DNA of 64,000 bases from Cyathus striatus. Lineage: Eukaryota; Basidiomycota; Agaricomycetes; Agaricales; Nidulariaceae. This document shows, piece by piece, positions 14,326 through 29,095 of the stretch. Location: positions 2,356,001 through 2,420,000 of the forward strand of contig JAOVFP010000004.1 in assembly GCA_025738555.1 (NCBI GenBank). The letters run 5' to 3'. Each line of letters begins with the position of its first letter. Position 1 is the first letter of the stretch. Both the position numbers and the translations under genes were made by a program. Below the pieces are notes generated by a model. It saw only the letters and a list, made by a program, of their open reading frames with translations. It was not told the DNA's origin and made no database searches.

Positions 14326-15020
14326 AATAAGGCCAGCAAGCAGCAGGGCCCACTACCTAACATACTTTTTTTGTTTGTTATTTAGTAAGTCATTTTGTTG
14401 ATGAAAACATTTATTTCTGTTAAGGGTATGTCTACTCCAGTGTGTAATTTATATAAACATTGACATGTTGGAATGTGGGAAGGTGAAGGATGTGACAAAT
14501 TATGGTTGTGTATGAAGGTTTCCTAGATGTCATTTTTGAGTCAGAAATGTATGGGAAATTTGGGGTATGTAAAGTTGAAAGTACTAACCTTGCATATGTG
14601 TAGTCATACAACCATCTATTCATATACCTCAAGCCCTGTACCATTGTAGACATATCCCATCTGCTCCAAGCAATACATTATGGAGGGGCACTAGCACTAT
14701 GCAACTTCTCTCCTGCTGTGCATGTTATACCCTAACCTTGTTGTTATCCATCATCACTGGCAACTACTATGTCATTATCAGTGCTCATCTATACCCTCCC
14801 TACACCACACCATCCACCACACACTGCACATTTCAGACATCCCAAGGCCCACAATCGTCAAACAAGAGCATGAAACTATGTTGACCCAAGTGCTGAATTG
14901 CTTTTGTAGTTTGCCAACAGTGTGCATTGTTGTTAGTCTAGATATTAGAGCTGTGTACAAGTACTCCAGTTTACAATTGATTGCTTGCATAGATTGATTC
15001 TTCATTCTATTCTTGGTGGG

Positions 15021-15700
15021 TGTCACGACTGTGCCCCTAGCCTGACTTGGCGGCGGAGTATGAGAGGGTAACTGCGAAGAAACGAGGGGTGAGTAATAGA
15101 TGAAGGTGGAGGACGATAACTCAGGGGGTAGGACTTCAGCTTCAGCTTATGTGCTGCGCCCCTGGGATTCCTGGTCCTAGATTTCGGAGTAAGGGCAAGG
15201 CCCTTTGGAGAAGACGAGAGACAGAAGACGAGAGACAGAAGACGAGAGACAGAAGATGAGAGGTGTAACTCAAGTCAGACTAAAGGGTGAGGATGTAGTT
15301 CAATACAAAACTAAAGACTAAAGTACAAATCGAGTATTACTTAAATACTGGAGACTTGGAGTAAGTAAAAGCCAGCGGAGAAGTACAGTCAGGGTAGGCA
15401 TATGTAGAATGAAGACTATAACTAATTAAACATAATAAAACATGTTGGAGAAGTGAGCACATATGGCAGTGTAAAGTGAAACAGATAGTGGCACACTTAA
15501 GAATGATAAGTGACTCACTATGATATGTATACTACATTACTGAGGGGATAGCTCAGTAGAATGGAAGGAAGAAAACAAGAGTAATCTATGTACAGTAATC
15601 AATAAGTAATATTAAGAGCATAAGCAAAGTTCGGAGTAAGCAAAGGAAAAGGTGGAGTAAGGGACTAGGAGCTCAGAGGTAGGTGATACAGGATATGACA
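15021..15700 (+). repeat. Solo LTR, copy 1 (680 bp, TSD GTGGG)
   Basis: Starts TGTCACGACTGTGCCCC and ends CAGGATATGACA, with the direct repeat GTGGG at 15016-15020 and 15701-15705. It aligns along its whole length with 38385-39046. This copy has lost many CpG sites that copy 2 retains (for example 'agtatgagagggtaactgcg' against 'agtacgagagggtgactgcg') and has a three-fold 17-base repeat 'gacgagagacagaagac' that is single in copy 2. A solo LTR arises by recombination between the two LTRs of a complete element. No internal retrotransposon sequence belonging to it is present in the window. Confidence 0.85.
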
Positions 15701-15862
15701 GTGGGTCATATGTATTGGCTGGGCTCAAGTGAACCTTTCACTGCACTATGTCAAATTGTATTTACACATAGTAAATGTCTAGCATTAATTTCATATCTAT
15801 AACTAATCTACATTCATAATATGATATGATTAGAGTACTAAATCTTTATTTAGCTTAAACTT

Positions 15863-17489
15863 GAGGTCTTTACACTCACCCCCCCATTCCGTCTGGACTC
15901 TGGGTGGACTCCGTGGATTCCACAGATTCCTGATGGACTCCTGCTGGACTTTGGCTGAATGTGTTTTAGCAGCAAGTCCAGCTATTTTTGTTGAGTCCAG
16001 TCCTGTTCAAGTCTGTCTCAAGTCCACCAGGAGTCCACCCAGAATCTATTGAATAGTGGGAGTCTGGCTAGTTCAACAGGAATTCCAGCAGACTAAATCC
16101 TTACGGAGTCTGACTGGACTCAACAGGACTCCTGCCGGAACATTGGAATAGCTAGATTACATTTACTTTATATTAATTAATATTACAGTAAGTACTAGTA
16201 CTGTATCAAAAATAAATACATACATTGTCCACAGCACAGTTTGAACTTGTGTCAACTCAAGTATTACATAATCATAAGTTCAAATGCTTATGCGCGCAAC
16301 CGATACACTACAATAGTGTTATAATTATAATGCATATTACACAATATGTAGGGTGCTCACTTGTGTGCACCGTACACATTCAGCAACTCCCATCTTGGCC
16401 ATGTCACAAGTCACGACAATGTTCACTCCTTCCCTCTCACTCTCTCCTCCTCCTCTCCCCTCCTCTCCTGCACTCCCCCTCCTCCCCTCCCCCTCCCTCT
16501 TCCTCCCCTCCTTCTCACCTCCTCTCCTCCTCCTTGCCTCCTCTCCCCTCCTTCACAATGACAACGACATGATGAGGGAATGACAATGATGCGCAGGTGA
16601 TGACAACAATGGGGGATGGACGACAAGGGAGGAAGCATGGGGACATGGGGAGTGAGAGAGGAGGCACAACAAGGGGGAGAGTGCAAGGGGGAGAGGGGGC
16701 ACATTGAAGAGGGGAGGTGCATCAAGGAGGGGGCATGTCGAGGAGGGGGCACATCGAGAGGGAGGGGTATGCATTGAGTGGGAGGGGGAAGCGTTGAGAG
16801 GGAGGACACATCAAGAGGGAGGGGGACGTGTTGAGAGGGAGGGGAGTGCATTGAGAGGGAAGGGAGCATGTTGAGAGGGAAGGGAGTGCGTTGAGCGGGA
16901 GGGGAACACATTGAGAGGGAGGACACATCAAGAGGGAGGGGGACACATCAAGAAGGAGGGGGATGCGTCAAGAGAGAGGGGGATGCGAGAGGGAGGGGAG
17001 GTGGGCATGACAAATAGGGAAGTGCGACGTGGGGGGAGGGCGTGGCAGTGATGAGATGGGGAGAAAAATAAGGGAGATGCAGTGAGAGGGAGGGAGAGGT
17101 GCAACAAAGAGCGAGTGCCATGTCGACAATAAGCGCTTTCCCGCCTGTTGTTGTTGTCAAGAGTGCCAGGTGGGAGCATGGGAAATGAAATTGGGGAGCA
17201 GTGGGGAGTAAATTATAGAAAATAAATAAAAATATGTAAATTAATTGTAATAAATTTATTTGTTCTGATTATTTTAAATGAATTTTCGTAATTTATTTAA
17301 TTCTTTTCACCTTAAGTTCACTTCAAATAATTACTATAGTGAATTTGGTGATGAGTTGATTTACACTGGTAGATACAAAGTCCATCAGGAATCCATTAGG
17401 ACTCCACCAGGACTCCAGGTGGACAATTGGATATCCAGCTGGAGTCCACCCAGAGTCTGGACGGACTGGGGGGGGAGTGTAAAGTACTG
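15863..17489 (+). mobile_element. hAT-like non-autonomous element, copy 1 (1627 bp, 8-bp TSD)
   Basis: Flanked by TTAAACTT at 15855-15862 and 17490-17497. The ends are GAGGTCTTTACACTCACCCC and GGGGAGTGTAAAGTACTG, imperfect inverted repeats, followed inward by inverted GGACTCC/GGAGTCC-rich subterminal repeats (15880-16150 and 17375-17465). The centre (16430-17110) is a pyrimidine/purine-strand-biased minisatellite of CTCCCC and 'gttgagagggaggggg' units. The 8-bp duplication and short ends fit the hAT superfamily. No transposase is present; long open frames in the centre (for example 16423-16926 minus) are low-complexity artefacts of the repeats. A second copy of nearly equal length lies inverted at 23415-25044. 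Confidence 0.8.
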
Positions 17490-17856
17490 TTAAACTTGAT
17501 GTTTTGGGCATGTAAATAATATAGCACCATACTGTTACCACACAGAAACATATGCCAATATCTTCCAGTGAAGCATCACTGTTCCAGTCAACTGCTTCAT
17601 TGGGAGAATGATCCAATGCTTATGTCAAACTACACACTAGAATTGTGAAATATAGATATATCATTAAGCCAAGACACTAAAATTTAGTGTCAATGTGATA
17701 TCAAGAATAAGTTAAAGTGCACAGACCTTGTCCAATCTCAAAGGGCTTCAGGTAGCTCACTACCAATGACTTCCCCCTCCCATTTGACACATCTCAGCTA
17801 CCCACCAACTTCATCTCACATTCCACAGTGCTCAATTGCATTGACAGGCTGACAAT

Positions 17857-18120
17857 ATGCCTGGTATGAAATGGGCAGAGGTTGATCAAGAGGCTCAGTT
17901 GAAGCAAAAATTCAATGAATATCTCATCATTTATCCAAACTGTGCATCACAGAAGGAATTTTACATCAAGAGCTGCCAGATGTTTTTTGAGAAGTGGGGT
18001 ATATGTCCAATGAAGGACAGGAGGGGTGGCCAGGTACAGCTTGTTGGAACTCTTGAGGAGTTGCACAGAAATCAGAATTGTGTGAGTATTTCGCTTTTTT
18101 TACACAGTACTATATTCTGA
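17857..18120 (+). CDS. Hypothetical short coding piece
   Basis: The 87-codon frame begins MPGMKWAEVDQEAQLKQKF and contains LIIYPNCASQKEFYIKSCQM, KWGICPMKD and LVGTLEELHRNQN, then runs into a probable GTGAGT splice donor at about 18080 (after CAGAATTGT). The amino-acid composition is balanced and protein-like, unlike the low-complexity frames around it. It may be a first exon of a gene or a captured gene scrap; no continuation was recognised. I cannot assign a family. Its CpG-poor surroundings argue that it is not a conserved active gene. Confidence 0.3.
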   Translation: MPGMKWAEVDQEAQLKQKFNEYLIIYPNCASQKEFYIKSCQMFFEKWGICPMKDRRGGQVQLVGTLEELHRNQNCVSISLFLHSTIF

Positions 18121-18885
18121 CTTTACTGCAGTGAATTCAGTCTTGGTTCCAAAACACTACTCATTTCCCATTGGTTTAGAACCACACACTTCAAAATCTA
18201 AAAACTCACTGGTGTTTTACTGCTGTTTCAGCTCACAGATATATTACACACTCTCTCCAATGATTTCATTACTAGGTATTATGTACATGTTGAAAGCCAC
18301 ACATGAACTACAGACAACACAGAAAGAGAATATGAATACAAAAAGAAGCAGAGAAAGACAAGAAAGTGAATAGTGATGAATGGAAGGTGGGTAATAGAGG
18401 TAAAGGAATGAAAGGCAGGGGAATTGAATGGAACTCAGAGGGAGGAAGGAAGGGGGTAATGTGATCTTAATGATGTACATTGTTAGTGGGAATGTTGGGA
18501 GGAATTTGGATGATTGGAGTGGGTTGTTGGTAGCCCCTAACATGTCAGACCACAACCATTGGCTTTGAGGTACTAATGTCAAGAATGAAGGCTAAGGGAA
18601 AGAGTGACATATACATACATTCAGATTATATAAGTACTCAGTCTGAAATGTAAAGAATGAAATGAACAAAGATCCTGGTGGAAAGCATTGGGCTGAATCA
18701 TGAACCTGAAGAGAACACAGTGCACTAGTATGATCTGAGTTACTATTCTTGGGTTGTTTGAATTATTAGCTTGAATTTATTATCATTTGAAGCATGTAAA
18801 AAGTATGAGAACAAGAGTAACAAAGAGTGTGGATGGTAGTAGATGGTTATTATAGAGGAAAAATGATCATATAGTCAAGGATGAA

Positions 18886-19455
18886 GTGTCATGTCCCATT
18901 CTATTCCACTATGGACAAGAACCTCAGAGGAGATAGTCTAAGTAGTGGAGTAACTTGTAACATATTAGTAGGGTGTGTGGAGGTAGTGAACAAGTACAGG
19001 AGTAGTGGAATGTTGGCTTCAACTTGTGTGTTGCGCCCTTTGGACTTCCAGTTCTGTATTTAGAACAAAGTGGAGTAAGTGGCAAAATAGCGGAGTTGGC
19101 TCAAGGCTCAAGTGGGAGAAAGGGTGTAAATGTAGTTGATTTGAAACTGAAGTCTATCTACATTACAGGAGTAGTTTATATAGTAAACTACTTTGTCCAA
19201 ATGCATATGGAGTAATGCCCATGGGTATGTGGCATCCTAGGGGTAAGTAGACTCCATGAAATGTAGACCATGGTAAACTAGTAGTACACCTCTAGATTAT
19301 AGTCATAGGAGAAATAGCTGCAGCTGGAGAATGAGGTAGTAATATTTAAAGGGAAGGAACAAGTAAACAGTTACAAGTAAACATTAGTAAGAAAGAGTTT
19401 GATATATAATAAGTATACATAGTCCAGAGGAAACATACTAAAAGTGGAGTAAATC
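18886..19455 (+). repeat. Possible strongly decayed relative of the solo LTRs
   Basis: Begins TGTCATGTCCCATTC and around 19013-19170 shows the same order of pieces as the solo LTRs: 'ggcttcaacttgtgtgttgc', 'gccctttggacttccagttc', 'gtggagtaagtggc' and 'gggtgtaaatgtagttgatt'. No matching end or target duplication was found, so this is tentative. Confidence 0.35.
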
Positions 19456-19460
19456 TGGAG

Positions 19461-19626
19461 TTGACTCCAATGGTTCGGTTGCTTGGTTCAGCTGATTTTT
19501 GGCTGGTTCTGACTTGGGTTCTGACTTTGGTTCTGGAATTTAAAAAGTCTTGGAACCAAACCAGAACCAGGTTCTATCATGACCCCCCTATTTGGATTTC
19601 TGGTTTTTCATTGGTTCATGTTCTGG
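19461..19626. repeat. GGTTCTGG/CCAGAACC short-motif repeat with CATGACCCCCCT tail
   Basis: Runs of 'ggttctgacttgggttctga' and 'ggaaccaaaccagaaccagg' are followed by 'catgacccccctatt'. A related stretch at 25345-25525 has five successive CCAGAA units, inverted counterparts and the same 'ccatgacccccc' tail. Probably two members of one small repeat family. Confidence 0.45.
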
Positions 19627-19740
19627 TTCACAGCATGAGTGTTAGCCAGAATGATCATAAAAGTGTAGTGTTTTATGATTGCGGCAATCATCTATCTCAT
19701 GATTGCCTGTTTCTAATGTAACTACTATATGCCTATTACA

Positions 19741-20520
19741 ATTATAAATGGTGATCATATGCAATCATTGGTTAGTTTGAAGTGTATATTACTATTGTAG
19801 ACCTATTATAAATGGTGATCATATGCAATCATTGGTTAATATGTAGTGTATATTACTATTGTAGGCCTATTATAAATGGTGATCATATGCAATCATTGGT
19901 TAATTTGAAGTGTATATTACTATTGTAGGCTATTATAAATGGTGATCATATACAATCATTGATTAATTTGAAGTGTATATTGCTATTGTAGGCTATTATA
20001 TATGGTGATCATATGCAATCATTGGTTAATTTGAAGTGTATATTGCTATTGTAGGCCTATTATAAATGGTGATCATATGCAATCATTGGTTAACTTGAAG
20101 TGTATATTACTACTATAGACTTATTATAAACAGTGATCATATGCAATCATTGGTTAATTTGAAGTGTATATTACTATTGTAGGCCTATTATAAATGGTGA
20201 TCATATGCAATCATTGGTTAACTTGAAGTGTATATTACTACTATAGACCTATTATAAATGGTGATCATATGCAATCATTGGTTAATTTGAAGTGTATATT
20301 GCTATTGTAGGCCTATTATAAATGGTGATCATATGCAATCATTGGTTAACTTGAAGTGTATATTACTATTATAGACCTATTATAAATGGTGATCATATGC
20401 AATCATTGGTTAATATGAAGTGTATATTACTATTGTAGGCCTATTATAAATGGTGATCATATGCAATCATTGGTTAGTTTGAAGTGTATATTACTACTGT
20501 AGGCCTATTATAAATGGTGA
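19741..20520. repeat. 64-bp tandem array, left arm (about 12 units)
   Basis: Unit core 'ataaatggtgatcatatgca' + 'atcattggtta' + 'gaagtgtatattact', repeating every 64 bases with few differences (first units at 19741 and 19805). The inverted counterpart is at 22690-23285 (about 9 units). The copy number differs between arms, so the arrays expanded or contracted after the inverted arrangement was formed, or by unequal exchange. Confidence 0.85.
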
Positions 20521-21071
20521 TTTGTCACGTCATTCCTGCGCTCCACATACTTCCCGTGCACTACATTTGTCACACGTCCACACGTGTCACATTTGTCACA
20601 TCATTCCCGCGCTTCACATATTTCCCGCGCATCACACTCGTCACATTTGTCACATCATTCCCGCGCTCCACATATTTCCCGCGCATTACGTTTGTCACGC
20701 ATCCACGTGCGTCACGTTTGTCATATCATTCCCGCGCTCCACATATTTCCCGCGCATTACATTTGTCACATCATTCAAGTGCTCCATATATTTCTTGCGC
20801 ATCACACGCGTCACACTTGTCACATCATTCCCGCGCTCCACATATTTCCCGCGCATTACATTTGTCACGCATCCGCGCGCGTCACATTTGTCACATCATT
20901 CACGCGCTCCATATATTTCCCGCGCATCACACGCGTCACATTTGTCACATTATTCCCGCGCTCCACATATTTCCCGCACATTACATTTGTCACGCATCCG
21001 CGCGCGTCACATTTGTCACATCATTCCCGCGCTTCACATATTTCCCGCGCATCACACTCGTCACATTTGTC
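20521..21071. repeat. CpG-rich TGTCACA/CCCGCGC array, left arm
   Basis: About 54-bp units combining 'tttgtcacatcattcccgcg' and 'ctccacatatttcccgcgca', some with an added CGCATCCGCGCGCGTCAC-type spacer. The inverted counterpart occupies 22275-22690. CpG and CGCG are plentiful here although the surrounding DNA is nearly free of CpG. Confidence 0.8.
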
Positions 21072-21280
21072 ACGCTTTAACGCGTTTGTCACGCTTTAAC
21101 GCGTTTGTCACGCTTTAACGCGTTTGTCACGCTTTAACGCGTTTGTCACGCTTTAACGCGTTTGTCACGCTTTAACGCGTTTGTCACGCTTTAACGCGTT
21201 TGTCACGCTTTAACGCGTTTGTCACGCTTTAACGCGTTTGTCACGCTTTAACGCGTTTGTCACGCTTTAATGCGTTTGAC
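21072..21280. repeat. 19-bp array CGCTTTAACGCGTTTGTCA x 11
   Basis: Eleven consecutive units, the first ten essentially identical, the last with CG changed to TG. The unit contains the palindrome AACGCGTT. The right arm has only one corresponding unit (near 22318-22340), so this array grew on one side only and recently. Confidence 0.9.
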
Positions 21281-22274
21281 CATCACATATGTCATGTTTT
21301 TGAGATGCATGATATGTTTTTCATGTGTGTTGTGTTTGTCAAGCACTTTGCAACTTTTTGCAAATGTCACACTTTCCAATCATGAGATTTATCTGTCTCT
21401 ACAACTATTGAAATTACCATGAAAGTGGAGTAAGTATCTAATGGTACAGAGTGAATTACAAATACAGATGAAACAATATGTACTTGTAGAATTGGAAGAC
21501 TTAATATGGAAAATGACAATTGGAATGTTGTGGAATTGTGGTAGTAATAAGAAACTAGAATGAAAGATGTAGAGTGTTTATGTAGCTGGAGTCTTACCAC
21601 TATTGACAGAGCATGAGATATTTGAAAATGAGATGGTATGAGAAGTTTTTAATCAGGTCTAGAGATGTAATGAAATGACATAGTAGAAACTATAATGGTT
21701 TGTCTGGATATGAGAGATGATGAGGTTATAAAAGATCTACATATGTATGACAAATGTGAAAGAGTGGTGAATATGTAATTTCACATTACATCAAATTCAC
21801 ATGTATCAGTCATTAGATAGTCATAATTCTTGTATCAACTATTGGTTATTCTTATATCTTCAAAACACATCATAGAGTTACATACATGCTTACTCTATAT
21901 GATTACATGACACTTCTATACTGTCATATGTGTTTCTATTCTCTGACATGTGATTTTGCTCTTTTAGTATCAGTATGCATTCTTACATATGAAAACCACC
22001 TCCTGTACTTCTCTACACTTTCTTGTGCTGTGGCCATTACTTAATTGCTTTTCTATTCTTTAGTTTAGTATTCACTGAAGGCCTCTTTGCCTTTTTTTCT
22101 CTCTTGCCTAAAACAACTTACTGTTACTTCTCCATAGTCATGTGCAGTATTGTTATTGACAGGATCTGTGAAAAGTATACAAACATTTTCATTATAGACT
22201 TGCTGGAATCCCATCAACATGTTACAATCATGACACACATGCAAGCATGATGTGCTTGAAATGTATGACACTCC

Positions 22275-23285
22275 TTATAAATGTGACACATGTGACATAT
22301 GTGACGCCCTTCCAAAAAACGCACTAAAGCGTGACAAATGTGACGAATGTGATGCACGGGAAATATGTGAAGCGTGTGAATGATGTGACAAATGTAATGT
22401 GCGCGGATGAGTGACAAATGTAATGTGCGTGGATGCGTGACAAATGTAATGTGCGCAGATGCGTGACAAATGTAATGTGCGTGGATGCGTGACAAATGTA
22501 ATGTGTGCAGATGCGTGACAAATGTAATGCGCAGGAAATATGTGGAGCGCGGGAATGATGTGACAAATGTGACGAGTGTGATGCGCGGGAAATATGTGAA
22601 GCGCGGGAATGATGTGACAAATGTGACACGTGTGGACGTGTGACAAATGTAGTGCGCGGGAAGTATGTGGAGCGCAGGAATAACATGACAAATCACCATT
22701 TATAATAGGCCTACAGTAGTAATATACACTTCAAACTAACCAATGATTGCATATGATCACCATTTATAATAGGTCTACAATAGCAATATACACTTCAAAT
22801 TAACCAATGATTGCATATGATCACCATTTATAATAGGTCTATAGTAGTAATATACACTTCAAGTTAACCAATGATTGCATATGATCACCATTTATAATAG
22901 GCCTACAATAGTAATATACACTTCAAATTAACCAATGATTGCATATGATCACTGTTTATAATAAGTCTATAGTAGTAATATACACTTCAAGTTAACCAAT
23001 GATTGCATATGATCACCATATATAATAGCCTACAATAGCAATATACACTTCAAATTAATCAATGATTGTATATGATCACCATTTATAATAGCCTACAATA
23101 GTAATATACACTTCAAATTAACCAATGATTGCATATGATCACCATTTATAATAGGCCTACAATAGTAATATACACTACATATTAACCAATGATTGCATAT
23201 GATCACCATTTATAATAGGTCTACAATAGTAATATACACTTCAAACTAACCAATGATTGCATATGATCACCATTTATAATTGTAA
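22275..23285. repeat. Right-arm arrays of the foldback element
   Basis: 22275-22690 is the inverse of the CpG-rich TGTCACA array, with a local run of 'gtgacaaatgtaatgtgcg' units (22385-22530) in which CG is often changed to TG or CA. 22690-23285 is the inverse of the 64-bp array. The order mirrors the left arm exactly. Confidence 0.8.
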
Positions 23286-23414
23286 TAGGCATATAGTAGT
23301 TACATTAGAAACAGGCAATCATGAGATAGATGATTGCCGCAATCATAAAACACTACACTTTTATGATCATTCTGGCTAACACCACTCTTCACAGATTGGG
23401 TTCATGGCATCTTC

Positions 23415-25044
23415 CAGTACTTTATGCTCCCCCCCCCAGTCCATCCAGACTCCTGATGGACTCTGGCTGGATATCCAATTGTCCACTTGGAGTCCTGATG
23501 GATTCCTGATGGACTTTGTATCTATCAGTGTACATACTCATTACCAATTCACTATAATAATTATTTGAAGTAAACTTAAGGTAAAAAGAACTAAATAATC
23601 AAAAAAAATGAATTTATTACAATTAATTTACATATTTCTATTTATTTTCTACAATTTACTCCTCACCGCTCTCTGCCTTTTTCCCATGCTCCTGCCTGGC
23701 ACTCTCAATGACAATGACAGGTGGGAAAGCACCTGTTGTCGACATGGCACCTGCTTTTTGCTGCACCTCTCCCTCCCTCTTGCTGCACCTCCCTTATCTT
23801 TCTCCCCATCTTGTCATTGCCGTGCCCTCCCCCCATGTTGTGCTTCCCTCTTTGTTGTGCTGGCCTCATTCCCATCTCATCACCCCCTCTCCCTCCCATT
23901 GCACTCTCATCAACTCAGCACCTCCCTCTTTGTTCTGCCTGCCTTGTTCTCATTTCAGCGTCCTCCTCCCAGTTCATCCCCTTCCCTCTTGACACATCCC
24001 CCTCCCTCTTGGCGCATTCCCCACCCTCTCAATGTATTCCCATTCCAACATGTCCCCTCCCTCTCAATGTGTTCCCCTTCCAGTATGTCCCTGTCCCTTG
24101 CAATGCATCCCCCTCCCTTGCAATGTGGCATGCACCCCTCATTCCACCCCCCCTAGCATTGCACCCCTCTCTCATTGATGCAGCATCCTCCTTCTTGTCT
24201 CCTCGATGTGGCACCCCCCTCTTGATGCACTGTCCTCCTTGCTGACATGCTGTGCCCCTCCCAATGCACCTGCCTCCTTGCCAATATGGCACCCCCATCT
24301 CAATATGCCACCACTCCTCGATATGCCCCCCTTGCAGTTTCCCCCTCATGTTGCCCCCTCTCTCTGCTTCCCCCCGAGTTGTCATTTTCATCCCTTAGTC
24401 ACCTGCATCATCGTCATCCTGTTGTAATTGAGAAGGAGGGAAGAGGAGGAGGGGAGAGGAGGGTGAGAGGAGGGGAGAGGAGGAGGGGAGAGGAGGGTGG
24501 GAGGCAAGGGGCAAATGTTGTCATGACCATTAGGTGGTTGTGATGTGTCCAAAATGGGAGTTGCCGAATGTGCACCATGCATGCACATGAGTGGCCTACA
24601 TATAGTGTAATAAATGTTATGTTAATAATGCCTTTGTAGTGTATCAGTTAAGCACCAAAATGTGTGAATATGTTATTATGTAATTATTGGATAGGTCCTA
24701 TGTTTGAATCACGCTGTGGACAGCATATATATTTATTTTAATTCAGTACTAGTAGTTATTGTAGTATTAATTAATATAAAGTAAATGTCAACTAACTATT
24801 CCAATGTTCTGGCAGGAGTCCTGTTGAGTCCAGTTGGATTCCATATGGATTTAGTCTGCTGGAATTCCTGTTGAACTAGCTGGACCCCCACTATTCAATG
24901 GATTCTGGGTGGACTCCTGGTGGACTCGAGACAGACTCAAGTAGGACTGGACTCGACAAAAATGGCTGGACTTACAGCTAAAATATGTTAAGCCAAAGTC
25001 CAGCCAGAGTCTGGACAGAATGGGGGGGTGAGTGTAAAGACCTT
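23415..25044 (-). mobile_element. hAT-like non-autonomous element, copy 2 (1630 bp, 8-bp TSD)
   Basis: Flanked by GCATCTTC at 23407-23414 and 25045-25052. It is the inverse of 15863-17489: the left end CAGTACTTTATGCTCCCCCC corresponds to the right end of copy 1, and the right end GTGAGTGTAAAGACCTT to its left end. The subterminal GGACTCC repeats, the CTCCC-rich centre and the 'acgctgtggacagca' stretch (24712) also correspond. There is no transposase; the open frames in 23608-24543 are low-complexity. Equal length of two copies with independent target duplications shows a defined transposon family. Confidence 0.8.
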
Positions 25045-25052
25045 GCATCTTC

Positions 25053-25354
25053 AATCATATCTCTTGTTTTTCTCATAGTACTCACTACTGTTAGAAAGTC
25101 TATTGTAGACTCTAGTTATTATTAGTAGGTTAAAATCAAATGTCAAACTGTCTTTTCTATTGTGATACTCAAGAATCAGAAGTCTACACTTTGATAGTAT
25201 CAGTAAATACTACTAGTTGGGGAGCAAGTATAGTAAAATATAAGCATTGATTTAAATTTGTATAAGTACTTAATAGGAAATGTAGTCAAATGTAGTATTA
25301 TGTAGTATACTTAAATAAATTATAAGTGTTGGGTGGGGAGAAGTACAGAACCAA

Positions 25355-25389
<35 letters not shown>

Positions 25390-26568
25390 CCTGTGGACCA
25401 ACTAAAAAGCTGGTCCACGGATGGATTCTGGTTCACAGTTTTTCTTGGTTCTCCCACAGTTTTGGTGTTCAGAACCAAAGTCTGAACCAAAACCAGAAGC
25501 AGCCATCCATGACCCCCCCTAATGAATCAATGAAGGGTGAAAAGTATGACTATGGGATCACAAACTGATGTTCCCCAAGTGGCAAATCCTGGTGTCCTCA
25601 ATTCAAATAGGTGATGTAGGCAGAAGGAGAACTGACATTGGCAGAGGGGAACACTAACACAAAATGACATTGTTGACACCCACAGAACACACTTCACAGC
25701 ACATTACTTACACCCCCAACCACACTCCATGAACAACACACAAATCACAAGCTGAGCCCCTGTGTGTTGCTGTCTATAATGGATCTGACACAGGGGGAGA
25801 GGATGATGTACTCAGGAAGAGAAGGCAGTCATACTATACATGGTGTGTTCATACTCCATGTTCACCTTGTCCTATATGTGTGCCTTAGCTTTTATTACTT
25901 TCCCCTATACCCACCTCAACCTCATATTTCATGCTCTCCTCCATAAGTAGATATGCAAGATAGCCATCTGATTTGGAGTTCACAATGACATTGCATAGTT
26001 TTGTGACTGTAGATGACACATCAACAAAGGTGTGATATGACAGTTGTAGGAGGGTTGCTGATGACTTATAACTGCTCAGTAAATAAAGTCAATCTGAGAT
26101 GTGGGAACCAGTGGAATATAGAAGTTGAGTTACCTATTTTATCATGAGCTGACAAAGATGTTAGGAGGAGTGGAGGTGCACAAGGTCCATGGGGGTTGCA
26201 TTCAGGTATGATAACTGATAAAGTAGGTTGTAAAACTCACAAACTAAATGACAGTGAAGGCTATCCTGGCCAAACAATCCACTGGTACATTCTCCAGTGC
26301 AAATGACAAAAGGACAGCATAAACAGTATGCATTGAGCACTGGTGCACAATGGAGTTGGGCCCACAAGCAAGTGGGCACAGAGATAAATACAAAGCCATG
26401 TGGGTGTGGGAAAAGTCACATGTGGGTTGAAAAGTGCAACCTATTATCACCCAAGAGAGTACTTTGCAACCAAGGTGACTACTGAAAAGAATACACAGAC
26501 CCCCTAAAATGAATAATCCACCCTATTATAGCATACACTCCTCCCCACCCACCAATATACTATGACCT
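25053..26568. other. Unassigned CpG-poor stretch
   Basis: Contains the CCAGAA-type repeat at 25345-25525. No gene was recognised elsewhere; open frames at 26161-26485 on both strands have no family resemblance. Confidence 0.35.
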
Positions 26569-27043
26569 GTGCTTCCCCCCCTTCCCCTCCACCCCCTCCA
26601 CTCAACCTCTAAGCACCCTTCAGAATTCACAAACCTCAAATTCCCCAACATAAAACACAAACACAACTTCTTGGACTTAGCACAACTAGCATGCACACCT
26701 AGTGCCTCCTTTATCTGCTTATATCACCCCAAGCTACCATGGTACATTGATATACATGTGTCACACCCAAACAGGGTAATGGTGTATGATGTGTTGATGC
26801 AGATGCATGTGGAGTTGAAGATGAGAATTAGTATGAGGCATTATCCCACTGAAGTGCTTGGGTAAGAAAAAGGAGGGGCTTAATAAGGCATATCAGACGT
26901 ATTGGGAGAGGTGTGAGGGACAGGGGAGGGAGCTTAATGAGGGGGTGAAGCAGGTTGATTTTTTGGGTGAGGGGGTGGTATTGAGGGGTTTTTTGAGGGG
27001 GCACATGGGGATGTGGGAGGTTAAGACTAGTGAGGCCAAGTAG
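26569..27043 (+). pseudogene. DUF6699-domain protein remnant
   Basis: The first part of the plus-strand frame gives HPKLPWYIDIHVSHPNRVMV followed by YDVLMQMHVEL (about 26729-26815). After a +1 shift near 26860 the frame continues with AYQTYWERC, GREL and GVKQVDFLGEGVVLRGF (26885-26995), ending in MWEVKTSEA. DUF6699 proteins of agaricomycetes share the order HPxxPWxIxVxxSHPxGVTVxDVL ... YxxRC ... GVRRVDFLxGxxxFxGL ... DxWxL. Their function is unknown. The single frameshift and loss of CpG indicate a decayed copy. The upstream part is proline-rich and uncertain as coding. Confidence 0.55.
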
Positions 27044-27090
27044 GTCATTGGAGTAGGGGGTGATGGGAGTGGAGAACTTGTCACTTAGCC

Positions 27091-28487
27091 ACATGTTTCA
27101 ACTGACTATCAGAGAGTTGATTGATAGTAAAATGAGACTTAGTTGAGACTCAGGTGAGAGTTTTGAGAGTCAGATGAGAGTCAGTTGATAGTAAGATTAT
27201 AATTACATACAAAATAGAGTAATTGCTAGTCTCACCTTACTCTCACCTTACTATTAGCTTACTCTTATTCAATCTGGTATCAGATACTAATCTGAGAGTT
27301 GATTGATACAATTTCACCTGACGATCACCTGACTATCAATTAAATTTGTATGAGTTATTGGTGTAAAATAGACTCCATGTAGATTCCACCTGATTACTAT
27401 AGTTTCCTACAGTTATAACACTTACCTAGACTATATTTTCCCACAGTCATTACACATGTCACAATGTGTGACATGTGTGACATATTGAAAAAAGTGGACT
27501 TCCTGAATGACACACTAGAACAAGTGTGCACAGTTATCACACTTACCTAGACTATAATTTCCCACAGTCCTCACACATGTCACACATTGTGACATGTGTG
27601 ACATGTTGGAAAAGCGTGACATGTTCAAAAAGCGTGATATATCGGAAGAAGCGTGACATATGTGACATGTTGGGAAAGCGTGACATGTGTGACACATTGT
27701 TACAGTATCATAGCCATCACACTTATCACACTTTTCATGTATTGTTACACTTTTCATGTATTGTCATGCTTGTCTTGCTTGTTCCAACATGTCACACTTG
27801 TCACACTTTTTCAGCTTATCACATAGTAACAAGTGTGACAAGACGTGTCACACAAGTCACGCTTTTTCCAACATGTCACAAGTCACACTTTTCCCTGCAT
27901 ATCACGCTTTCCAACATGTCACGCTTTTGGGAAAAATGTGACATGTGTGATACATCTTGGCACACTTGTCACTGTGTGACATGCTGGGAAAGCGTGACTT
28001 GTGTGACACGTCTTGTCACACTTGTTACTATGTGATAAGCTGGAAAAGTGTGACAAGTGTGACATATTGGAACAAGCGTGACAAGCGTGACAATACATGA
28101 AAAGTGTAACAATACATGAAAAGTGTGATAAGTGTGATGGCTATGATATTGTGACAATGTGTCACACATGTCACGCGTTCCCAACATGTCACATATGTCA
28201 CGCTTCTTCCGATATATCACGCTTTTTTGAACATGTCACGCTTTTCCAACATGTCACACATGTCACAATGTGTGACATGTGTGATGACTGTGCACACTTG
28301 TCCTAGTGTGTCATTCAGGAAGTCTCAACTGACTCTCAACTGACTCTAATGAGACTCTTAGTTGACTATTGAGACTTAGTTAAGAGTCAAATGACAGTCA
28401 GATGAGAGTCTAATCTGACTTCTGAGACTTAGTTGAGAGTCAGATGAGAGTCAGGTGAGAGTCAGTTGATAGTCAGTTGAGACATGT
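27091..28487. mobile_element. 1.4-kb foldback element with TGTGACA and GAGTCAG motifs
   Basis: Outer inverted repeats: ACATGTTTCAACTGACTATC at 27091 and GATAGTCAGTTGAGACATGT ending at 28487. Next come GAGAGTCAG/CTGACTCTC clusters (27155-27190 and 28325-28475), then an inverted pair CCTGAATGACACACTAGAAC (27502) and CTAGTGTGTCATTCAGG (28302). In the core, arrays of 'gtgacatgt', 'aaaagcgtgacatg' and 'ttgtcacactt' lie as inverse copies left (27540-27900) and right (27960-28290). Three frames are open across the arrays only because of the repeat. No transposase and no clear target duplication were found. Confidence 0.65.
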
Positions 28488-28539
28488 GTGGGAGTGACAC
28501 ATACAGTGGGGGTGGACCTTTATTCCTGTATCAAAAATG

Positions 28540-29095
28540 ACCATGTGACAATTTAAAACATTTGTCATCCAAGGTTCCATTGAAGTTGACCTTGAAGTTG
28601 ACCACCAACCATTGATGAACTTAGCCTCACTCAGGTTATTATCAACTTGCTCCTATCAATGCAAGATATCTTTCTATCAACTATGTGTCTCAGAAGATGA
28701 TGTACATATTCTACAATTGACCTCTTTGTTGACATTGACTGAAGTACTAGCATCTTCATGATTTAAATTCTCGCAATGTATGTAGAACCATGCCCTCTTC
28801 TCTAAAATCCCCTCACAATGTTGACTACCACCCTCCTGGATGCCAATCCAAACTGATACCCCACTCACCCCTGCTATGCTGGAGTCCCTTGTTTGACTTA
28901 TCCTCCTCCTCTCAGTCCTCCTCCCACTCTCAATGCCCTCCTCTGAAGCTTGCAGATGGCTCTTCATTCTACTCTTTCTGATTTCATTGCACCTCACTCT
29001 GCAGACTACTACTGGGGACTTGATGGGTGCTGGTGACTTGGGACTGAGACTGTACATAGCAAGCAAGTGTGTGCTCAACTTCAACTATATCATTT
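28540..29095 (+). pseudogene. First-exon copy of a wax-synthase-like gene
   Basis: 28540-29095 is a direct partial duplicate of 35255-35890. In the plus strand the frames give LVCLILLLSVLLPLSMPSS, LFILLFLISLHLTLQTTTGD and LYIASKCVLNFNYIIF. This is the hydrophobic N-terminal region with the TTTGxxxxxxGLGxxIASxxxxxxDYI motif seen in fungal wax-synthase-like (membrane O-acyltransferase type) proteins. It then stops, with no second exon. Frameshifts are present (an extra GGTGCT near 29023). It is separated from the longer copy by the pogo element. Confidence 0.5.

Follow-up and report, generated by a model that had tools for sequence, protein, structure and literature searches.

In a 64,000-nucleotide stretch of the Cyathus striatus genome (contig JAOVFP010000004.1, positions 2,356,001 to 2,420,000; C4:2356001-2420000 in our contig numbering), hereafter the window, an inverted structure had been predicted from the letters alone to be a foldback transposon. 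We find this prediction well supported by dispersed copies, 7-bp target duplications, uninterrupted insertion sites and longer relatives that bear a KDZ transposase. The structure, which spans 3,754 bp (19634-23387; positions without a contig label are those of the window), is very probably a foldback transposon that belongs to the KDZ superfamily but is not autonomous; the length of its duplications makes it Kyakuja-like. The genome searched comprises 107.45 Mb in 24 contigs (C1 etc.).

The element shows the layout expected of a foldback, namely: long inverted arms with tandem repeats, a loop, and a target duplication. On the plus strand, an L-type end with the tip CATGA (19634-19740, 107 nt) is followed by a 64-bp array (19741-20521; 12.2 units by Tandem Repeats Finder (TRF), 12 of them with individual variants), a CpG-rich TTTGTCACATCATTCCCGCGC array (20522-21065; TRF repeats span about 20520-21073), a 19-bp array of TTTGTCACGCTTTAACGCG (21066-21278; 11.2 units by TRF, 99% matches) and a loop of about 1 kb (21279-22303) that has no coding match and whose inner boundaries are approximate. 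The right arm, on the minus strand, consists of a CpG-rich array that mirrors the left one and includes one 19-bp unit (22304-22691; TRF repeats within about 22385-22634), a 64-bp array (22692-23280; 9.2 units by TRF, placed also by unit comparison) and an R-type end (23281-23387) with the tip GAGTG when read inward. The 19-bp units number 11 on the left side vs. 1 on the right. Gap-free alignment of the inverted arms gives 96% identity over 691 nt and again 96% over 539 nt, and nt 6-112 of the left end are the same as those of the right end; the two ends differ at their tips, CATGAGTGTTAGCC vs. GAGTGGTGTTAGCC. The coordinates, arm order, loop of about 1 kb, 64-bp arrays of about 12 and 9 units and mirrored CpG-rich arrays had all been predicted, right almost to the base, together with the TTCACAG repeats found immediately outside (19627-19633 and 23388-23394). 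The predicted absence of coding sequence agrees with the lack of any Pfam match at 0.01 in 10 scanned of the 14 stop-to-stop open reading frames of at least 60 aa, the other four being two frames within arrays and two that cross an edge of the element. In addition, no Rfam family scores above its threshold within 15000-29000, and a plasmid collection, from which records close to this genome are possibly excluded, gives no match.

The element landed in one copy of a dispersed repeat of about 178 bp (window 19476-19633 plus 23395-23414). When its flanks are joined with a single TTCACAG, 7 other places in the genome match across the junction with 93-96% identity (query positions 177-179 to 354, the junction being at 334). 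All 7 are included among the 10 places found with a 31-nt junction pattern, 6 of them perfect and 4 with 1-3 mismatches; the reversed pattern finds none. TTCACAG is intact in 9 of these 10 uninterrupted sites, while the other reads TTCACAT. Since the uninterrupted sites carry the motif once, its second occurrence at the element is a target site duplication: the element was inserted as a unit, duplicating 7 bp. Another common repeat (19300-19476), with 31 further listed places at 93-95% identity, adjoins the insertion-site repeat.

The element is one member of a family that is scattered over the genome and whose L and R tips are different. Occurrence in a single place, or flanks free of duplication, had been named in advance as signs of a local rearrangement or assembly product, and neither is found. 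Searching the genome with 141 bp of the left end gives 190 candidates, 40 of which were scored as matches. End patterns allowing up to 3 mismatches are present at 72 L-type and 101 R-type places (100 of the latter listed), with none for the reversed patterns; one L-type place, C2:2114493, is actually R-type and was dropped before pairing. Automatic pairing of the ends yields 57 pairs, i.e. 50 L/R, 3 L/L and 4 R/R, and end groups on C5, C11 and C22 that were mispaired through nesting or close neighbours were corrected by hand. An exact 7-bp duplication flanks 23 of 35 L/R pairs, and at least 6 of 7 bases match in 27; exact duplications of 5, 6, 8 or 9 bp occur in none. It should be noted that these 35 are the pairs with sequence retrieved, not a random sample. 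Flanks of two L/L pairs agree at only 5/7 and 3/7 bases. The tips are side-specific over nt 1-5 in the copies we call family A, up to nt 10 in family B, which largely conserves the first ~58 nt of the window element's left end, and up to nt 18 in family C (2 copies). Copies also nest: on C5, a family-A foldback has in its loop an 11.4-kb family-B element with the duplication AGGATCT.

The original prediction called for a search for an autonomous relative with the same ends, and such relatives are present, as longer elements that contain a KDZ transposase match. The L/R pair at C5:781609-800169 (18.6 kb, 12.1 kb of which was read) has exon matches to KDZ (PF18758, 4.2e-38) and CxC2 (PF18803, 2.2e-38) in its right part. 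Like the window element, it carries a 64-bp array immediately inward of each end (18.9 and 15.9 units). The two elements are 92-94% identical over the outer 885-893 bp, a match that stops exactly where the 64-bp array stops, and the terminal 112 nt of their right ends are identical. The flanks of this autonomous element, AAATCTG and AAATCCG, match at 6 of 7 bases; it stands outside the 35 pairs counted above. The window element therefore shares its ends and subterminal arrays with a partner that encodes a KDZ transposase, and these shared ends indicate that it is a non-autonomous derivative of such KDZ-bearing long elements.

This association extends beyond a single locus. PF18758 has at least 159 matches genome-wide (150 of 169 candidates scored), while a search with the KDZ exon (83 of 83 candidates scored, 81 matches listed) gives four top matches of 100, 96, 92 and 90% identity, all others being at or below 79%. 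The four lie inside C5:781609-800169, C22:432060-462210, C6:5313940-5329681 and C1:6302933-6318316, one in each, and these are all the long (15-30 kb) L/R pairs of families A and C. This count leaves aside a C5 foldback that owes its length to a nested element; the C22 pair, which has a 4.3-kb element nested in it, was for that reason defined by hand. Each of the four matches follows the L-to-R strand and is 2.5-4.1 kb away from the R end. Further KDZ matches in the same orientation lie 12-13 kb from single L ends at C1:4950634, C6:5940659 and C1:1182228, the last two measured from L ends with 3 mismatches, and at C6:5172249 one more is 4.9 kb away from a lone R end. Among relatives of the transposase, the highest scores go to mushroom proteins, from Cyathus striatus (52%), Laccaria bicolor (45%), Galerina and Amanita. 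The PF12851 (TET/JBP) profile has no matches in this genome; it has none in control genomes either, so this result is uninformative. Inward of a separate R end at C6:5351801 there are long minus-strand frames (L049:1-4700) that may code for a Ty3/gypsy-like polyprotein.

The arms of the window copy have been copied. Variants of the 64-bp unit occur in the same order on both arms, the right array corresponding to left units 1-4, a 5/6 hybrid, 7, 8, a 9/10 hybrid, and 12. The seven non-hybrid units are identical to their counterparts at 64 of 64 positions, and each hybrid is identical at 63 with one parent. These shared variants in shared order indicate copying between the two arms, one of which has lost or recombined units. 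The two ends of the autonomous C5 element are distinguished by nt 30, 33 and 50 and by positions further inward, and nt 30 is A on the L side and G on the R side in all three KDZ-bearing family-A pairs. Across 21 family-A foldbacks, by comparison, nt 30 is G/G in 20, A/A in 1 and mixed in none, and nt 33 is T/T in 14, A/A in 5 and mixed in 2. Most foldbacks thus carry R-type letters on both arms.

The two arms of a copy are also more alike than arms of different copies. For family A (n = 21, nt 19-108), the mean number of differences is 1.67 within a copy (L-R), 2.85 between copies and 2.83 between L arms, and none of 20,000 permutations gives an equally low within-copy value. Family B (n = 10) shows 2.90 within vs. 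4.83 between copies (p = 0.003). The test excluded L053, L069 and both L/L copies, and the 2 copies of family C are reported without it. A single ancient duplication without subsequent exchange would predict the reverse order. Differences among the arms are unevenly spread: one CpG (2 of 89 positions in nt 19-107) carries 17 of 49 differences, 12 of them transitions, in the 38 arms that remained after 4 of 42 with more than 12 differences were dropped. Such a hot spot is the pattern to be expected if the DNA is methylated. In family-A arms, GCGGC at nt 48-52 is particularly changeable, mostly by CpG transitions, and the palindrome ATGATTGCNGCAATCAT survives the change in some copies.

The loop is found in both orientations. 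Its query gives 467 candidates, and the 40 places scored, itself included, are 86-100% alike. Relative to the L-to-R tips, 6 of 18 loops (those of at least 860 nt and 90% identity) point one way vs. 12 the other way, and near-identical loops can be opposite, as in the window (plus) and copy L034 (minus). The loop tree requires a minimum of 5 orientation changes (bootstrap 4-6), 2 of which are forced by well supported branches, and orientation clusters no more strongly than in shuffles. Recombination between the inverted arms would explain these loop flips as well as the homogenised arms.

The CpG-rich array travels with the loop. A 35-nt pattern of its unit occurs at 200 places with up to 2 mismatches (control 0). 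Of the 100 listed, 76 are in recognised L/R pairs, 13 lie 6 kb or less from a lone end and 11 are elsewhere, some of these strays lying at three loci (C3, C6 and C10) near loops of 87-88% identity. The listed places form 30 clusters, and in 18 of 18 clusters with both strands the plus copies all precede the minus copies. This distribution and strand order indicate a mirrored module that accompanies the loop and is absent from those parts of the autonomous arms that were read. The arms may, we infer, be protein-binding arrays, as originally suggested; the autonomous copy has the 64-bp arrays and showed no CpG arrays in the portion read.

Several observations weigh against the assignment to KDZ or against parts of the account of the arms. 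Flanks match at fewer than 6 of 7 bases in 8 of the 35 L/R pairs, and some KDZ matches contain in-frame stops. No KDZ match lies in the six long (12-19 kb) family-B pairs, which are found at C1:5826994, C9:1530123, C10:2756744, C11:2366342, C12:51477 and C16:2843723, and two B-type elements contain a Helitron match instead of KDZ. The 12.1 kb read of the autonomous C5 element holds no source of the CpG array or loop. Unit-order agreement is modest across copies, 0.57 with the own arm vs. 0.47 with others and higher for the own arm in 11 of 15 copies, some being perfect mirrors and others resembling chimeras; copies with fewer than 3 units per arm and four family-A copies were omitted. Because this signal is weaker than in the window copy, concerted evolution of the arms is argued from the arm differences and the nt 30/33 states. 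The case for mobilisation in trans is itself built, by deduction from sequence, on matching ends plus an engine. Finally, the 7-bp duplication agrees with Kyakuja (exact in 23 of 35), while the termini do not: Kyakuja families of Laccaria have 5'-CA..TG-3' termini without terminal inverted repeats (TIRs), together with a TET/JBP gene, according to the available portion of PMC12730594, and here we find CA..TC and inverted arms. CA..TG without TIRs may describe two Laccaria families rather than the Kyakuja lineage. Given this mismatch, we file the element as KDZ, Kyakuja-like only by duplication length, and its placement within KDZ is tentative.

Other engines would also have to account for these observations. 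Genome-wide gene-profile searches were confined to PF18758, Helitron and PF12851. Two long pairs with related ends contain listed Helitron matches, namely C9:1530123-1543249 and the nested C5 element (C5:1455970-1467364), a family-B relative with a 1514-codon Rep/helicase frame (PF14214, 1.5e-59; PIF1, 4.1e-72). Helitron-driven movement is nevertheless extremely unlikely, since the matches (at least 152 genome-wide; 150 of 192 candidates scored) are listed in just these two long pairs, at a distance from the L end of about 3.8 kb in the nested C5 element and 8.0 kb in the C9 pair. Helitrons are not known to make a target duplication, of 7 bp or otherwise. On the genome-wide positions of the matches and the 7-bp duplications, we rejected Helitron as the engine. 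The nested C5 element also contains further TGTCAC arrays. Least probable of all, to the point of being negligible, is a local rearrangement or assembly product: long inverted arrays are difficult to assemble and some array lengths may be wrong, but dispersed copies each with its own duplication, and ten uninterrupted sites, speak against it.

A foldback of the Mutator superfamily, of the Drosophila FB/Tetris type and driven by the transposase of a Mutator-like element (MULE), would offer the same unique end, tandem arrays and loop, and most foldbacks are seemingly Mutator elements according to the part of the Tetris paper available (PMC4079207). Against this, the 8-10 bp duplications given there for Tetris contrast with 7 bp here, where none of the 35 pairs has an exact duplication of 8 or 9 bp, the two lengths of that range that were compared, and KDZ lies inside the long copies with the same ends, so that we consider a Mutator origin exceedingly improbable. 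A 7-bp duplication by itself would fit a hAT7-type or a P-type (Galileo-like) element: Puccinia hAT7 families have such duplications (PMC12730594, in part), as does Galileo, along with long tandem-repeat arms (PMC3573991, in part). The coding partner is KDZ with CxC2, which makes these very unlikely as well.

Among KDZ elements, the excerpts available of PMC12730594 give 7-bp duplications for Kyakuja of Laccaria and 8 bp for Zisupton and a Dileera element. Our element resembles Kyakuja in its 7-bp duplications, its 5' CA terminus, and the KDZ plus CxC2 of its autonomous partner; unlike the Laccaria families as described there, it has CA..TC ends, and its 64-bp arrays are mirrored in the autonomous copy too. 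KDZ1-3 of Cryptococcus neoformans are likewise KDZ DNA transposons of a basidiomycete host, but they have a CxC1 domain, TIRs of 139-241 bp, a transposase-coding interior, and duplications of 8 bp (KDZ1) or 4-8 bp (KDZ2 and KDZ3), as given in the accessible part of PMC12810828. Zisupton of Pristionchus has TIRs, and no duplications were found there (PMC9297572, in part).

In layout and dynamics, the nearest analogue is Galileo of Drosophila, which likewise has gene-less copies, recruitment of internal sequence into its arms, and a proposed exchange between arms and copies (PMC3573991). It differs in its P-type transposase, and the portion of that paper available mentions neither a two-way loop nor side-specific tips. 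Drosophila FB and Tetris share long repeat-bearing inverted arms, a non-coding or variable middle and conserved termini (PMC4022104 and PMC4079207, each in part); Tetris was placed by its authors in Mutator. The foldback layout is already known from these systems. A KDZ version did not appear in the literature found, a search whose coverage left out most subscription journals and is no proof of absence; the overlap between foldback and Zisupton literature was a software paper with Drosophila FoldBack4 as its case study, Zisupton not occurring in the main text as available. For Drosophila FB, duplications are 9 bp long.

How such an element could move and arise may be sketched as follows. A KDZ transposase from the long copies would act in trans on one L and one R tip (~58 conserved nt), the 64-bp units assisting as additional binding sites, and would cut and paste the foldback element. 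The foldback form itself might originate when an excision gap or break is repaired and the R arm is thereby copied to the L end, with loss of the gene; the template switch would then be located in the 24-nt block common to L and R (nt 6-29). Subsequent arm-arm recombination and conversion would flip the loop and keep the arms alike, while selection for a usable L/R pair would maintain the tip difference, the tips presumably staying distinct because the enzyme needs one of each. A more general proposal, which we put forward as possible and no better than doubtful, is that foldback formation recurs in this KDZ lineage: after excision one arm would be remade from the other, the arms would evolve in concert and the loop flip, and selection on an L/R-asymmetric transpososome would preserve no more than the outermost 5-18 nt. 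In that case the gene-less form would have acquired the mirrored CpG array and loop as a module that aids it, e.g. through a host factor or methylation state.

Foldbacks in the literature found, as far as its text was available, come from animals and plants and are linked to Mutator- and P-like transposons. Here the layout has arisen in a different superfamily that has received little study, and the genome that holds the foldbacks also holds their matched autonomous partner. Many copies have clear duplications, and both the copying of arms and the inversion of loops have left natural records, so that foldback formation becomes directly testable, and the KDZ ends (~58 nt plus 64-bp units) are offered as substrates for binding and excision assays.

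Two other inverted structures were observed in the window. An older inverted-arm repeat (15864-25043) encloses the foldback; its arms are about 1.6 kb long and end in AGGTCTTTACACTCACCCCCCC, its outer 276 nt are 88% alike, and it contains G/C-rich minisatellites. Its end has at least 44 genome matches of 70-100%, itself included (best 40 of 151 candidates scored). A second small foldback lies at 27497-28324, with arms 97% alike over 239 nt and TGTCAC/TGTGACA motifs, and TGAGAGTCAGT-like repeats are found outside it at 27112-27197 and 28423-28482.

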